This document shows positions 43,324 through 49,051 of a stretch of 64,000 nt of DNA, one piece after another. The first letter of the stretch is position 1, and every line of letters starts with the position of its first letter. The DNA comes from Pseudomarimonas salicorniae (GTDB lineage Bacteria > Pseudomonadota > Gammaproteobacteria > Xanthomonadales > Xanthomonadaceae). The notes under the pieces were generated by a model. It was not told the origin of the DNA and made no database searches. It was given only the letters and a program-made list of their open reading frames with translations. The DNA lies in the NCBI RefSeq assembly GCF_023156535.1, contig NZ_JALNMH010000001.1, positions 186,001 to 250,000 of the forward strand, read 5' to 3'. The position numbers and the translations under genes were made by a program.

Positions 43324-45261
43324 ATGATGCGCGCACTGTTTCTATCCGCCTGCCTGCTCGGGCTGCCATCGCTGGCAGCGGCGGTTCCGCCGATCGGGGA
43401 CTTCTTCCGCTACGTCGAGTTCCGCGACATCCGGATCTCGCCCGATGGCAAGCACCTGGCCGCCACGGTGCCCGACGAGGACACCCAGGCGCTGGTGGTC
43501 TTCACCCGCGAGAACCGCAAGGTCACCGGCGTCGCCCGCTTCGAGGACGATCGCGAGGTAGCCAGCTTCGAGTGGGCTTCAAGCAAGCGTCTGGCGTTCA
43601 CCATGAACGACCGCCTCGGCAGCCTGGTGCGTCCGATGACCCGCGGCGAGCTGCTGTTCATGGACGTCAACGGCAAGGACCGCGCCGCCTACGCCGGCGG
43701 CAACCGGGCCAGCCAGCTGACCCACCCGCTGCCCGAGGACCAGGACCATGTCGTGGTCACCGACTACCTGCCGAGCACGCGCCGCGAGGAAGCCGACGTC
43801 GTCCTCTACAAGGTCAACGCCAAGACCGCGCAGGGTCGGGTGCTGGCCTATTCGCCGGTGCCCAATGCGTTCTTCCTGGTCGACAACGAGGGCAACCCCC
43901 GGGTCGCCTCTGGCGTCCGCGGCTACAACCAGGGCGAGGTCCACTACTACAACGCCGAGAGCAAGGAGTGGAAGCTCATCCATGAGCAGGCCAAGTCCGA
44001 GCAGGACATGTACCCGGTGCGCATGCACCCGGACGGCGTGCGCTTCTACGCGATGATCACCCACGCGAGCGGCACCAACGGCGCCTACCTGGTCAGCCCC
44101 AGCGGCGAGACCCAGCTGATCGCCCGCGACGAGGTCTCCGACCCGACCACGCCGGTCTACTCCACCGACGGCAACGAGCTGATCGCCATCGACTTCCTCG
44201 CCGCCGAACCGCGGCGGGTCTACGTCGACCCCACCCATCCCGACTCCAAGCTGCTGGCCGGCCTCGAAAAGGCCTTTCCCGGCCAGTGGGTCAACCTGAC
44301 CAGCAGCACGCTGGACGGCAGCCTGGTGGTGTTCCTGGTCCGCAGCGACCGCAACCCGGGCGAGTTCTACCTGTTCAACCGCAAGACCGGCCAGGCCACC
44401 TACCTCGCCGCCCGCTCGCAGTGGATCAAGCCCGAGCAGATGGGCGTGATGAAGGCGATCAGCTACACCGCGCGCGACGGCGTCAGGATCCACGGCTGGC
44501 TGACCCTGCCGCCGGGGGTGAAGGAGGCCAAGGGCCTGCCGCTGATCGTCAATCCGCACGGCGGCCCCTACGGCCCCTACGACGCCTGGGGCTTCCAGCG
44601 CGACGTGCAGCTGCTGGCCAGCCGCGGCTACGCGGTGCTGCAGCCGAACTTCCGCGGCTCGGGCGGCTTCGGTCGGCCCTTCGAGCGCATGGGCTACCGG
44701 CAGTGGGGCGGCACCATGCAGGACGACGTCACCGACGCCACCCTCTGGGCGATCGAGCAGGGCATCGCCGACAAGGACCGCATCTGCCTCTACGGCGGCA
44801 GCTACGGCGCCTATGCCTCGCTGATGGGCGTGGCCAAGGAGCCGGACCTGTACCAGTGCGCGATGGGCTTCGTCGGCGTCTACGACCTCGACATGATGTA
44901 CCGCCGCGGCGACATCCGTGAGCGCGACTCCGGCGTGGACTATCTGGAGGAGGTGCTGGGCCGCTCGAAGGAGGACCTGACCAAGGGCTCACCTGCCCAG
45001 CAGGTGGCCAGCATCAAGGTGCCGCTGATGATCGTCGCCGGCGCCAAGGACCGCCGCACCCCGCCCGCGCAGAGCGAACTGCTGGTGAAGAACCTGAAGG
45101 AAGCCGGCAAGGGCAACCTGGTCGAGGAGTTCTACGTCGAGAAGGGCGAGGGCCACGGCTTCTACAAGGTCGAGAACAACGTCAAGCTCTACAGCAAGAT
45201 GCTGGCCTTCTTCGACCGCCATATCGGCTCTGGCAAGGCCAAGGCCGACCCGGCACCGTGA
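43324..45261 (+). CDS. Secreted S9 (prolyl oligopeptidase) family serine peptidase
   Basis: This 645-residue protein has a signal peptide (LFLSACLLGLPSLAAA), an N-terminal beta-propeller (about 25-370; FRDIRISPDGKHLAATV, SPSGETQLI), and an alpha/beta-hydrolase domain (about 380-640). Catalytic residues lie in YGGSYGAYASLMG (Ser), GAKDRRTPPAQ (Asp) and GEGHGFYKVEN (His). The TSSTLDGSLVVFLVRSDRN stretch is typical of dipeptidyl/acylaminoacyl peptidases of Lysobacterales. GGGGGA precedes the ATG. It ends 6 bp from the convergent birA. Confidence 0.92.
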   Translation: MMRALFLSACLLGLPSLAAAVPPIGDFFRYVEFRDIRISPDGKHLAATVPDEDTQALVVFTRENRKVTGVARFEDDREVASFEWASSKRLAFTMNDRLGSLVRPMTRGELLFMDVNGKDRAAYAGGNRASQLTHPLPEDQDHVVVTDYLPSTRREEADVVLYKVNAKTAQGRVLAYSPVPNAFFLVDNEGNPRVASGVRGYNQGEVHYYNAESKEWKLIHEQAKSEQDMYPVRMHPDGVRFYAMITHASGTNGAYLVSPSGETQLIARDEVSDPTTPVYSTDGNELIAIDFLAAEPRRVYVDPTHPDSKLLAGLEKAFPGQWVNLTSSTLDGSLVVFLVRSDRNPGEFYLFNRKTGQATYLAARSQWIKPEQMGVMKAISYTARDGVRIHGWLTLPPGVKEAKGLPLIVNPHGGPYGPYDAWGFQRDVQLLASRGYAVLQPNFRGSGGFGRPFERMGYRQWGGTMQDDVTDATLWAIEQGIADKDRICLYGGSYGAYASLMGVAKEPDLYQCAMGFVGVYDLDMMYRRGDIRERDSGVDYLEEVLGRSKEDLTKGSPAQQVASIKVPLMIVAGAKDRRTPPAQSELLVKNLKEAGKGNLVEEFYVEKGEGHGFYKVENNVKLYSKMLAFFDRHIGSGKAKADPAP

Positions 45262-45267
45262 GCCGCT

Positions 45268-46011
45268 TCAGCCTGCGTCCGCCGGGCGCAGGCTGACCTC
45301 TCCGGCGGCGCAGCAGAACTCGCCGCCGGCATCGGCAAGGCGCAGCCGGCCATCGTCGGCCACGCCCAGCACGCGCGCCTCACAGCGCGCTCCGGCTGAC
45401 AGCCTGACCACGCGCCCGAGCAGCGCATCGAGGGCCTCCCAGCGTGGCCTGAGCGGGGCGAATCCGGACACGCAGAATGCGTCGATCACCTTGCCCAACG
45501 CCGGTAGCAGCCGCTCGAGCAGTGCCTCGCGCGCCAGCGCATGACCGAGTGTGGCCATGTCGATGGCCGGCTGCCCCACATCCAGCTCCGCCGGCAGGCG
45601 CAGGTTGAGGCCAAGGCCCATCACCACCTCGCTACGGGCGTCGCGGCCGGGCGCGATTTCGATCAGGATGCCGCCCAGCTTGCGCCCGCGTGCCAGCAGG
45701 TCATTCGGCCACTTCAGCCCGACCTCTTCCGCACCCAGCCCGCGCAGGGTCTCGGCGACGCCGATGCCGACGGCCAGGCTGAGCCCGCCGAGCGCACGGG
45801 CCGGCAACGGCAGCCTGGCAAACAGGGAAAGATAGAGGTTGGCACCCGGCGGCGAATGCCAGCTGCGGCCCTGCCGACCGCGTCCGGCGGTCTGCGCGTC
45901 GACCACCAGGGCGTAGCGGTCCGGGAGCCGCTCTGAGCGGCGCAGCAGCTCGCTGTTGCTGGAGTCGCACACGGCCTGCCATTCCAGCGGCCAGCCACCG
46001 ACCTGCTTCAT
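45268..46011 (-). CDS. birA: Biotin-protein ligase, class I (no DNA-binding domain)
   Basis: This 247-residue enzyme makes biotinyl-AMP and attaches biotin to AccB. Motifs: SSNSELLRR, DAQTAGRGRQGRSWHSPPGA (biotin/ATP loop), GLKWPNDLLARGRKLGGILIE, and GLGLNLRLP. A small C-terminal SH3-like domain follows (LLGRVVRLSAG). The N-terminal helix-turn-helix of E. coli BirA is absent, so it cannot repress biotin genes. It lies 3 bp after plsY. Confidence 0.95.
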   Translation of the reverse strand: MKQVGGWPLEWQAVCDSSNSELLRRSERLPDRYALVVDAQTAGRGRQGRSWHSPPGANLYLSLFARLPLPARALGGLSLAVGIGVAETLRGLGAEEVGLKWPNDLLARGRKLGGILIEIAPGRDARSEVVMGLGLNLRLPAELDVGQPAIDMATLGHALAREALLERLLPALGKVIDAFCVSGFAPLRPRWEALDALLGRVVRLSAGARCEARVLGVADDGRLRLADAGGEFCCAAGEVSLRPADAG

Positions 46012-46014
46012 CGC

Positions 46015-46644
46015 TCAGCGCCGCCGCAGCCGGCCGATCAGGCGGGCCTTCTCGAAACGATGCTCGGTGCCGGCGCGCAGCCGGGCCAGGTTGCTGCGAT
46101 GGGTGTAGAGGATGAACAGCGCCGCCGCCACGGCGAAGCCCAGGCGCAACCCGGGCGAGGGGCCGGGATCGAACCAGGCCCAGGGAACCAGGGCGACCGC
46201 GGCAAGAATCGTCGACAGGCCGACATAGCCGGTGGCCAGCAGGCAGAGCACCCAGACGCCGAGCAGCACGGGCACCGACATCGGCCACATCACCAGCAGG
46301 CCGCCGATCAGGGTGGCCGCCCCCTTGCCGCCGCGCAAGCCGTAGAACACCGGCCAGACATGTCCCGCCACCGCCAACAGGACGCAGCCTGCCACGGCCT
46401 GTTCCAGCGGCAGCGGCGCACTGCCCAGCCAGACCGGCAGGCAGGCCGCGAGGGCGCCCTTGCCGATGTCGATCAGCACCACGCCCAGCGCGAAGCGCCA
46501 GCCGCGGGTTCGAAAGGCGTTGGTGCCGCCAGCGTTGCCGCTGCCCTGGGTGCGGATGTCGAAGCCCTGCAGACGTCCCAGCAGCAGGGATCCGGACAGC
46601 GAGCCGAGCAGGTAGGCGGCCAGAAGGCAGAGGGCGAGGATCAC
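46015..46644 (-). CDS. plsY: Acyl-phosphate:glycerol-3-phosphate acyltransferase PlsY
   Basis: This 209-residue membrane enzyme transfers an acyl group from acyl-phosphate to glycerol-3-phosphate. Motifs: AAYLLGSLSGSLLLGRLQGF, the Ser-Gly-Asn region TQGSGNAGGTNAFRT, AGHVWPVFYGLRGGKGAATL, and five to seven membrane helices. GTG start. Its direct upstream neighbour is a fatty-acid-kinase-like fusion that could supply the acyl-phosphate. Confidence 0.96.
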   Translation of the reverse strand: MILALCLLAAYLLGSLSGSLLLGRLQGFDIRTQGSGNAGGTNAFRTRGWRFALGVVLIDIGKGALAACLPVWLGSAPLPLEQAVAGCVLLAVAGHVWPVFYGLRGGKGAATLIGGLLVMWPMSVPVLLGVWVLCLLATGYVGLSTILAAVALVPWAWFDPGPSPGLRLGFAVAAALFILYTHRSNLARLRAGTEHRFEKARLIGRLRRR

Positions 46645-46704
46645 GACTGCAGTGTCGTCATGGGTGAATCGACCTGTTGAGCATGGAGGCGCTGGCGACG
46701 CAGC

Positions 46705-48525
46705 TCAGCGAGCAACTTCGGTTTCGACCTGGGCCGAGACCACCAGGGTGCCGGGCCCGGCGTGGGCGCCGATGGCGGGACCGGTCTCGACCAGCCAGTC
46801 GCGGCTGATCGGCAGCCGCTGGCGCAGGGCGGCCAGCAGGGCCTCGGCCTCGGCCGGCGCATCACAGTGGCCGACCATCACCCGCCACTGCGGCGCCCGC
46901 GGCAGGCGACGCTCGACATAGCGGGCGAAGCGTTCGGGCACCCGGGCGCCGCCGAACAGGGCACCGGCCACGGAGAGCTTGCCGCTGGGCTTCATCCGGG
47001 CGATCGCGGTCAGCCCGAAGCGGCTGGCCAGCGGCAGGACCCAGCCCGGTACCCGGCCGCCGCGCACGGCGTGGCTGATGTCGCGGGCCGCGGCGAAGGT
47101 GAAGGTCTTCGGGCCCAGCGCGTCCAGCCTGGCGCGGATGTCGGCCACCCCGGCCCCGCGCCGGGCCAGCTCGGCCGCGGCCATGACCAGCAGGGCCTGG
47201 CCGCAGGAGGCCTGGACGCTGTCGATCACCGTGACGCGCGTCCCCCCGCAGCGCTCGGCCGCCGCCTCGCCCGACTGCAGGGTGCCGCTCAGCTGCCGGG
47301 AAAGGCCGATGTAGACCACCTCCTCGGCGTGGGAAAGGAGCAGCTCGAACTGGCGGCGGAAATCCCCGGGCGGCGGCTGCGAGGTCTGCGGCAGGACGCC
47401 GCCACCGCGCAGCCGGGCATAGAACTCGGCGTTGCTCAGCGAGACCCGGTCGAGGAAATCCTCGGCGCCGAAACTGACCCGCACCGGGACCACGTCGATG
47501 GGCAGCTGCTCGGTGATCCCGGCGGGCAGGTCGGCGGCCGAATCGGTGACGATGGCGACCTGGCCCTGCCGCTGGGTGGCGCGGAACTGGGCGCGCATGT
47601 CCTCGGCCTTGCGCGCGCTGACCGCGCCGAAGTCGCCGGCGATCTCGAACATCCGGCCCGGATCGGCCACGTGGGCATGCAGGCGGACCCGCCGCGCCGT
47701 CCCCGCCACCACCACGCTGGCCGCACCGCTCTGCTGCAGCATGCGCTGCAGGGCCTGACGGTCGATCGCCTCGGCCTCGATCAGGCACTCGCTGCACCAC
47801 GGCCGGCTGGCGTCGGCCTCGTCGTGCCAGTGGTCGCCGGCAAATTCTTGGGTGTTGCCGAGATCCGGCGGCGCCGGTCGCAGTTCGCGGCGGGCGATGA
47901 AGCCGTGGATGCCCTCGATGAGATCGACGAAGCCCTGGGCTCCGGCGTCGACCACGCCGGCCTGGCGCAGCACGGCCAACTGCCTGGGCGTTTCCGCCAG
48001 CGCCTCGCGGGCCTTGTCCACGGCGTGGCCGAACCAGGCATTGAGGTCGCGTCGCGGCGCCTCCAGGGCCTCGGCAAAGGCCCGGATCACGCTGAGGATG
48101 GTCCCCTCGCGCGGCTGTGCCAGCGCCCCGCGCGCCTGCTCCGATCCGGCGCGCACCGCCCGCGCAATCCGCGCCGAGCTGAGCTGGGCGGCATCGCCCA
48201 CCGCCTCACTGGCGCCGCACAGGAACTGCGCGAGGATCGCGCCCGAATTGCCCCGCGCCCCGTCGATGGCGTCATCCGCCACCGCCCGCAGCAGGGCCCC
48301 CGCCGAGCGGCTGCGGCGGCTGAGGCTGCCGCTGAGCACGGCATTGAGGGTGAAGGCGAGGTTGCTCCCGGTATCACCGTCCGGCACCGGGAAGACATTG
48401 ATCCGGTTGAGCAGCTCGCGCCTCTCGATGACCCGGCGCATGCCGGCAATAAGCGCCCGCCGCAGTCCGATCGCGGAGACCCGCGGGCCTTGTTCGAAGG
48501 GGATGTCGTGGGAAATGGCAGCCAT
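46705..48525 (-). CDS. DhaL(DAK2)-DegV fusion resembling fatty acid kinase FakA joined to FakB
   Basis: This 606-residue protein combines two parts. Residues about 15-215 are a DhaL-type kinase domain (NRINVFPVPDGDTGSNL with Asp49/Asp51, and RGNSGAILAQF at 91-101), followed by a FakA-like middle domain (about 240-315; WCSECLIEAEA and VRLHAHVADPGRMFE with His283/His285). Residues about 323-600 are a DegV domain, the lipid-binding FakB fold (VAIVTDSAADLPAGI, YIGLSRQLSGTLQSGE, DSVQASCGQALLVMAAAEL). In Firmicutes FakA phosphorylates a fatty acid held by FakB; here both are one chain. plsY follows 60 bp downstream. The enzymatic function is inferred. Confidence 0.85.
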   Translation of the reverse strand: MAAISHDIPFEQGPRVSAIGLRRALIAGMRRVIERRELLNRINVFPVPDGDTGSNLAFTLNAVLSGSLSRRSRSAGALLRAVADDAIDGARGNSGAILAQFLCGASEAVGDAAQLSSARIARAVRAGSEQARGALAQPREGTILSVIRAFAEALEAPRRDLNAWFGHAVDKAREALAETPRQLAVLRQAGVVDAGAQGFVDLIEGIHGFIARRELRPAPPDLGNTQEFAGDHWHDEADASRPWCSECLIEAEAIDRQALQRMLQQSGAASVVVAGTARRVRLHAHVADPGRMFEIAGDFGAVSARKAEDMRAQFRATQRQGQVAIVTDSAADLPAGITEQLPIDVVPVRVSFGAEDFLDRVSLSNAEFYARLRGGGVLPQTSQPPPGDFRRQFELLLSHAEEVVYIGLSRQLSGTLQSGEAAAERCGGTRVTVIDSVQASCGQALLVMAAAELARRGAGVADIRARLDALGPKTFTFAAARDISHAVRGGRVPGWVLPLASRFGLTAIARMKPSGKLSVAGALFGGARVPERFARYVERRLPRAPQWRVMVGHCDAPAEAEALLAALRQRLPISRDWLVETGPAIGAHAGPGTLVVSAQVETEVAR

Positions 48526-48737
48526 CCCCCGAGTCTGCCAGAGCCCCGCGGATTGGGAATGCTGCGGTGCAGCGGGTGAAGCCGCGCTGGGTCTAGAACG
48601 CGTCATGACAGTTTGCCCAGGGCCAATCCCATGACCCGTCCGACGCGTGCACGCTGACCGCCAGTTCAATCAATGCTGCCGATTGGGGCTTGCCCGGCTC
48701 AAGCGGCGCGATTGAAGCGGCGCACAGCGCCGCAAGC

Positions 48738-48912
48738 GACCGACCGAGCGAAACGTAGTGCAGCGAAGGCGCAGGGCGCGTAGCGCCCGTAGTCTTGGCA
48801 GGCGCAACGCGCCCGCCAAGACCGACCGAGCGAAACGTAGTGCAGCGAAGACGCAGGGCGCGTAGCGCCCGTAGTTGCGGCAGGCGCAGAGCGCCTGCCG
48901 CGACCGACCGAG
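48738..48912. repeat. 82-bp tandem repeat with variable hairpins
   Basis: A 55-bp conserved block (starting GACCGACCGAGCGAAACGTA, ending GGCGCGTAGCGCCCGTAGT) begins at 48738 and again at 48820; a third start (GACCGACCGAG) is at 48902. The period is exactly 82 bp. Between blocks lie different palindromes with GGCAGGCGC...GCGCC arms. The block itself contains the hairpin GGGCGC-GTA-GCGCCC. The rest of the 526-bp gap 48526-49051 shows no convincing gene. Confidence 0.85.
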
Positions 48913-49051
48913 CCCCGCCCGCGTCCGGCCGACACCACGCCTCGTCGCGGCGGAGCTACGATTGATCCCGTAGCCTGGCGATTGGATGCAACCTTTTTCA
49001 CGCTTCCTGCATCTGACCGTGCAGACGCCGAGCCACAACGGACCTGCCGCC

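Follow-up and report, generated by a model that had tools for sequence, protein, structure and literature searches.

Introduction

The fatty acid kinase of Firmicutes is a system of two proteins, exemplified by FakA with FakB1 or FakB2 in Staphylococcus aureus and by the Streptococcus suis FakA-FakB2 structure 7w7h. The Mg-site residues of S. aureus FakA were reported to be Asn32, Asp38 and Asp40 (PMC9136124), and the Asp pair, together with Cys240-His282-His284 of FakA and Arg173 of FakB, was described as required (PMC9136124, PMC11617999). FakA_N plus FakA_L was demonstrated to be active without FakA_C, which functions in FakB binding: the Km for FakB1 was 0.09 μM with FakA_C and 0.99 μM without it, an approximately tenfold rise in affinity, and FakA_C is structurally related to FakB itself (PMC9136124). 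A general remark that DegV can form one domain of multidomain proteins has also been published (PMC12288450). Purified FakA/FakB of Bacillus subtilis were shown to feed PlsY of both B. subtilis and Escherichia coli in vitro with no PlsX (PMC13400652). We describe here a gene of Pseudomarimonas salicorniae whose single-chain product combines the FakA-like and FakB-like parts and which lies directly upstream of plsY. It was found in a stretch of 64,000 nucleotides (contig NZ_JALNMH010000001.1, positions 186,001 to 250,000), hereafter the window, in a genome of 4.54 Mb on 32 contigs with a completeness rating of 100%.

From comparisons of sequences, predicted structures and genomes, we put at roughly 0.8 the probability that the product of this gene is a fatty acid kinase in one piece, which would supply PlsY with acyl-phosphate made from free fatty acids and so replace PlsX.

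Domain architecture and conserved residues

The fusion gene (P0001; 46705-48525, minus strand) is an uninterrupted open reading frame (ORF) that runs from an ATG at 48525 to a stop at 46705 and encodes 606 amino acids, with a longer ORF possible from a TTG at 48669. Along the chain, Pfam places a Dak2/DhaL ATP-binding kinase domain (residues 46-206; 47908-48390, minus strand; 2.6e-37), a FakA-like middle domain (FakA-like_M, residues 243-315; 47581-47799, minus strand; 5.2e-12), and a DegV/FakB-type domain predicted to bind fatty acids (residues 323-598; 46732-47559, minus strand; 5.3e-56). The ORF contains the motifs PVPDGDTG, GARGNSGAILAQF and VRLHAHVADPG. FakA-like_C, the FakB-docking domain, stayed below its cut-off in the fusion (13.7 bits vs 23), and its place is occupied by DegV, which scored 190 bits to the DegV family and 220 bits to TIGR00762 (cut-off 99.7). 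ORF and Pfam analysis therefore confirm the initial annotation, which had described a single 606-residue frame with DhaL, FakA-like middle and DegV domains, the last in the position of FakA_C. By whole-genome profile search, the fusion is the sole DegV and the sole Dak2 match of the genome. The next gene, plsY (acyl-phosphate:glycerol-3-phosphate acyltransferase, P0002; 46015-46644, minus strand), starts with a GTG at 46644, 60 bp from the fusion stop, and its product exceeds the cut-off of the PlsY equivalog TIGR00023 (141.4 bits vs 137.2; PF02660 E 2.7e-43). The interval 46015-48525 that was originally assigned to the fusion covers both genes.

Loss of the Mg-binding Asp residues, named in the initial annotation as grounds for refuting its proposal, was looked for, and the Mg-site residues N43 (just before the Pfam Dak2 boundary), D49 and D51 proved invariant in 69 of 69 fusion sequences, a set that includes the window protein and omits own-genome copies and the broken or cut L005 and L038. 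The middle-domain residues C244, H283 and H285, which correspond to Cys240-His282-His284 of S. aureus FakA and were also aligned with 7w7h_A, are likewise kept in all 69, as are T381, S413, R491 and H588 of the DegV domain. Judged by its position, R491 would be the Arg173 of FakB1; T381, S413 and H588 presumably match the carboxylate ligands of FakB. When 40 loci were added, the residues agreed in 108 of 109 rows, the odd row being a stray 135-amino-acid fragment picked for L068, which was removed from the later set.

The individual domains are well predicted in the AlphaFold model of the fusion (mean predicted local distance difference test score, 85.3). The top Foldseek match was S. suis FakA with a low global template modelling (TM) score of 0.32, followed by DegV-family and FakB structures with TM scores by target of 0.82-0.89 among the matches listed. 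S. aureus FakB1 with palmitate (5uto) gave 0.86-0.87 by target, the solved relative 2dt8 was also matched, and the FakA N-domain 8vip gave 0.92 by target length with a root-mean-square deviation of 1.1.

PlsX, PlsB and FadD in the genome

PF02504 gave no PlsX match in this genome, rated 100% complete, and the same profile matched 8 of 14 controls, including E. coli. The gene order in E. coli is yceD-rpmF-plsX-fabH. Here, rpmF and fabH are adjacent: fabH, the product of which has 63% identity to E. coli FabH, starts approximately 145 bp after the 64-amino-acid rpmF frame (L083 1146-1340), a yceD-like frame precedes rpmF, and no space is left for plsX between rpmF and fabH. The rpmF and yceD frames were recognised by eye rather than by model. 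A PlsX-supplied PlsY was rejected for this genome on the basis of the PF02504 negative and the rpmF-fabH synteny. PlsB was found, as were two FadD homologues with 59% and 53% identity to E. coli FadD.

The initial annotation had expected acyl-CoA (acyl-coenzyme A) and PlsX routes in such a bacterium; with PlsX not found, no PlsX route is visible in this genome. The fusion is therefore the only recognisable source of acyl-phosphate for PlsY, and the case is stronger and more interesting than was originally stated. A fused kinase beside plsY, together with the missing PlsX, points to free fatty acids as the supply for PlsY in this bacterium.

Distribution in the order

We surveyed 299 genomes of the window's order by profile searches for the fusion, PlsY and PlsX. 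Judging from named relatives, this order would be Xanthomonadales/Lysobacterales, perhaps wider than the Xanthomonadales of the papers cited below. The fusion profile matched 140 genomes, of which 12 with weak DegV-like matches only were excluded; the remaining 128, which include broken and contig-edge pieces, were counted as fusion-bearing. PlsY was found in 130 genomes and both in 124, a co-occurrence with a Fisher p of 9e-71, uncorrected for kinship. All four genomes with the fusion only (G076, G114, G134, G171; completeness 67-97%) gave partial matches. In 119 of the 124 genomes with both genes, plsY lies downstream of the fusion on the same strand, with 30-403 nt between match ends. Because the arrangement is seen again in this many genomes, it is not a product of chance, and a frameshift or assembly artefact was ruled out, since the same chain was found in many unrelated assemblies. 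The two genes lie on different contigs in the other five genomes (G010, G012, G027, G158, G291). In G012 and G291, some 20 kb or more separate each match from the start of its contig, and the 1.5 kb on either side of the fusion yielded no plsY; these two genomes retain both genes unlinked, which supports a functional tie.

PlsX was found in 103 of the 299 genomes and does not track PlsY. Fusion, PlsY and PlsX were all found in 59 genomes, and 65 had the fusion and PlsY without a PlsX match; 49 of the latter are at least 95% complete and the rest are less complete. Other combinations were fusion with PlsX (2 genomes), fusion alone (2), PlsY with PlsX (4), PlsX alone (38) and none of the three (127). 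In the window genome's own family (f1), PlsX was matched in none of the 21 pair-bearing genomes, each of which is at least 95% complete. PlsB was detected in 68 of 69 genomes, hand-chosen and mostly highly complete, in which it was searched for; the exception was G019.

Several genomes of the order deserve separate description. G019 has neither PlsB nor the fusion, its PlsX (G019:C1:2288920-2289889) was matched in three pieces, and its PlsY has 37% identity to the window PlsY; this genome is unlike its supposed relatives. At G146:C9:47041-48749, the fusion was matched as two overlapping pieces, from a frameshift or a sequencing error. Of the 38 genomes with PlsX and neither PlsY nor the fusion, 31 belong to family f8, and in one of these (G036, locus L136, 381-1367) plsX immediately precedes a fabH-like frame. 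In the absence of PlsY, PlsX would make an acyl-phosphate for which we know of no user. From the 12 genomes excluded for weak DegV-like matches, four were inspected and three scanned. Genomes without fusion or PlsY (L130-L133, from G155, G175, G101 and G278) encode a free-standing, divergent DegV protein of approximately 315 amino acids, with Pfam values of 3.7e-64 to 2.5e-54 in the three scanned and with the TSQP and HxGPG motifs missing by eye. This protein is possibly an orphan lipid binder.

To control for kinship, a quick PlsB tree of 60 of the 69 chosen genomes served as a proxy for the species tree. It omits G013, G040, G243, G262, G034, G244, G271, G291 and G019, the last because it has no PlsB, and several long branches meet on it. 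The fusion changes 7 times on this tree, PlsY 6 times and PlsX 3 times. Five well-supported independent pairs differ in PlsY (six on all branches), and the fusion differs in the same way as PlsY in 5 of 5 pairs in nearly all of 200 pairings and in 4 of 5 in the few others; differences in PlsX are very rare in those pairs. On a tree built from 108 fusion rows, no fewer than 5 changes in the presence of PlsX are required within the order when absences in incomplete genomes are counted as well.

Relatives outside the order

Among 369 genomes drawn from across the class, 17 matched the fusion at E <= 1e-30, some partially, and two of the 17 (G000, G012) are from this order. A search of a contig database yielded 41 loci encoding fusion relatives. 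Four of them (L002-L005) encode proteins with 67-75% identity to the fusion and are each adjoined by plsY, with L005 broken in frame; the relatives include those of a Xanthomonadaceae metagenome-assembled genome (74%, best segment) and of Pseudomarimonas arenosa of the order Lysobacterales (67%). The other 37, hereafter the Gemmatimonadota-type loci, have 31-39% identity and come mainly from Gemmatimonadota, with a few metagenome-assembled genomes labelled Nitrospinota, Gammaproteobacteria or bacterium. Their neighbours differ from those in the order. PlsY is present in all 41 relative-bearing genomes and PlsX in 34, being missing in L002-L005, L019, L029 and L037. On the single-contig chromosomes L030, L037, L039 and L042, the PF02660 positions are also far from the fusion.

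Firmicutes likewise encode the DAK2-middle-DegV arrangement in a single chain, as seen in Listeria (L137 3480-5246), L138 and L139. The Listeria gene is annotated only as "DegV family protein" and is followed by a DUF1295 gene. An unprecedented architecture was therefore rejected: the same three-domain chain, in one frame and with approximately 29-39% identity to the window protein, occurs in Listeria, Acetoanaerobium, Enterococcus raffinosus and Gemmatimonadota. The Listeria chain differs in having no plsY beside its gene (the neighbours were checked in Listeria only among these Firmicutes) and in a DegV domain without the His. The architecture is widespread; what is special to this order and genome is that the fusion is linked to plsY and that PlsX is lacking.

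Proposed mechanism

The window protein shares with FakA/FakB of Firmicutes the Asp pair of the DhaL Mg site, the Cys-His-His set of the middle domain, and a DegV/FakB domain with its conserved residues. It differs in being one chain without FakA_C, with one fixed FakB part instead of exchangeable FakBs, and in its Gram-negative host, which has PlsB and no PlsX match. Since FakA_C serves FakB binding, tethering of FakB could make FakA_C dispensable. We propose that the DegV domain would take a free fatty acid from the membrane in the manner of FakB, and that the tethered DhaL and middle domains, equivalent to FakA minus FakA_C, would use ATP to phosphorylate the carboxylate of the bound fatty acid. 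The resulting acyl-phosphate would then pass to PlsY, the product of the next gene, which would acylate glycerol-3-phosphate. The one-chain kinase supplying PlsY that the initial annotation had proposed thus stands on intact residues, a sole copy, gene order and co-occurrence, with its PlsX premise abandoned.

As in the PlsX/PlsY pathway, acyl-phosphate is the presumed donor for PlsY. That pathway takes acyl-ACP (acyl-acyl carrier protein), whereas here free fatty acid and ATP would give rise to the acyl-phosphate. The genome also has the components of E. coli-type salvage by FadD and PlsB, but the FadD route yields acyl-CoA, unlike the proposed kinase-PlsY route, and to our knowledge PlsY does not use acyl-CoA. 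With the fusion as the one recognisable acyl-phosphate source, PlsY may serve free (imported or recycled) fatty acids, and PlsB may serve acyl-ACP and acyl-CoA. With moderate confidence, we extend this to a PlsX-independent PlsY pathway in much of the order, in which PlsY would have been kept after PlsX loss as the fusion supplies acyl-phosphate. The two routes of first acylation would be split by chain origin, with PlsB handling new acyl-ACP and kinase-PlsY free fatty acids, and acyl-phosphate would report free fatty acid rather than acyl-ACP.

Alternative explanations and points against the proposal

The DegV domain could instead be a structural substitute for FakA_C that docks a separate FakB, which would make the protein an ordinary FakA catalytic subunit. 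The structural relation of FakA_C to FakB (PMC9136124) is in keeping with this idea, and related chains of Firmicutes score above cut-off for DegV and FakA-like_C alike; in the window protein, however, the corresponding domain reaches 190 bits to DegV and falls below the FakA-like_C cut-off, and the conserved DegV-family residues are kept in every one of the 69 fusions. An ordinary FakA was rejected because the genome yielded no second DegV protein that it could serve, and we regard this explanation as very unlikely. A kinase for another substrate, either some other carboxylate or a ligand resembling dihydroxyacetone, with the PlsY adjacency and co-loss reflecting operon inheritance, appears just as improbable. 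DhaL domains occur in dihydroxyacetone kinases too, the Gemmatimonadota-type loci have different neighbours, and the best sequence match in the Protein Data Bank (7ed6) is named merely "Probable kinase", but the matches after it are S. suis FakA (7w7h), DegV (2dt8) and S. aureus FakA, and Foldseek puts FakA and fatty-acid-binding DegV structures first. A dihydroxyacetone kinase was rejected, with the equivalog models TIGR02365 (29.4 of 138.3 bits) and TIGR02361 (27.7 of 574.95 bits) far under their cut-offs. PlsY without PlsX occurs only alongside the fusion, save in two incomplete genomes, which also argues against an unrelated substrate. Finally, the acyl-phosphate may be mainly a short-lived signal or a sink for toxic free fatty acids, cleared by PlsY and not destined for phospholipid building. 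PlsB is present, so that PlsY need not carry bulk synthesis, and acyl-phosphate was proposed to be an LpxC inhibitor in E. coli (PMC13060810). We consider a predominant signal or sink role unlikely, but it is compatible with a fatty acid kinase supplying PlsY and not exclusive of it.

Several observations weigh against a fused fatty acid kinase that supplies PlsY in place of PlsX. About half of the chain is covered by each of the curated models for FakA (NF038248, 144.4 of 975 bits), FakB1 (NF038249, 82.9 of 350 bits) and YloV (TIGR03599, 252 of 396.1 bits), and all three scores are below the cut-offs. The domain arrangement is uncertain in the AlphaFold model (predicted TM score, 0.58), which does not fix whether the pocket faces the active site. 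Within the order, PlsY occurs with no fusion detected in six genomes, namely G019 (100% complete) and G006, G070, G073, G161 and G200 (83-94% complete), and in the incomplete G006 and G073 neither the fusion nor PlsX was found. The PlsB tree includes only G006 of these six, with five missing, and the sign test p of 0.0625 is the minimum reachable with five pairs. The fusion and plsY are adjacent, so that one deletion could remove both and mimic co-loss. Outside the order, the linkage to plsY that the initial annotation had looked for in relatives, and that holds in most pair-bearing genomes of the order, breaks down: none of the 37 Gemmatimonadota-type loci yielded a plsY in its flanks (6 kb at most, and shorter where a contig ended, as in several), in a search with a profile grown from the window PlsY whose sensitivity for Gemmatimonadota PlsY is not established. 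Since 34 of these 37 genomes have PlsX, the fusion need not replace PlsX there.

Neighbouring features

A birA-type biotin-protein ligase gene (45268-46011, minus strand; TIGR00121, 156.5 bits, cut-off 83.1) lies 3 bp downstream of plsY, and the originally annotated order of fusion, plsY after 60 bp and then birA was reproduced with TIGR00023 and TIGR00121. The birA gene is perhaps co-transcribed with fusion-plsY, and we know of no role for it in the proposed mechanism. A promoter scan at the locus found none. The gap upstream of the fusion gene contains an 82-bp tandem repeat (window 48719-48913) with two full copies and a partial third. On the plus strand, a peptidase-like gene (window 43324-45261) gave weak matches, far below cut-off, to Dpp5 dipeptidyl-peptidase and lasso-peptide isopeptidase models.

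Significance

Xanthomonadales are said to have only PlsB and PlsC, a statement traced to a 2008 review, and one of the two papers concerned calls the group an exception to universal PlsY (PMC11633183, PMC13400652). Against this published statement, 130 of the 299 genomes of the order have PlsY, and 65 have the fusion with no PlsX found. The statement was probably based on genomes of the Xanthomonas kind, in which PlsY and the fusion would both be missing, and the fusion/PlsY-negative genera of our survey would then be Xanthomonas and its kin. We found no description of the fusion or of its link to PlsY among the open-licence PubMed Central papers listed in our searches, covered mostly as titles and abstract openings.

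The question why PlsB-bearing bacteria keep PlsXY was left open in PMC13060810. If the proposal is true, PlsY would be uncoupled from PlsX, and a fatty acid kinase would enter Gram-negative phospholipid synthesis. The one-chain kinase would be a simple source of acyl-phosphate in vitro, and the bacteria that carry it would be natural cells for asking why PlsB bearers retain PlsY and whether acyl-phosphate regulates lipopolysaccharide synthesis.

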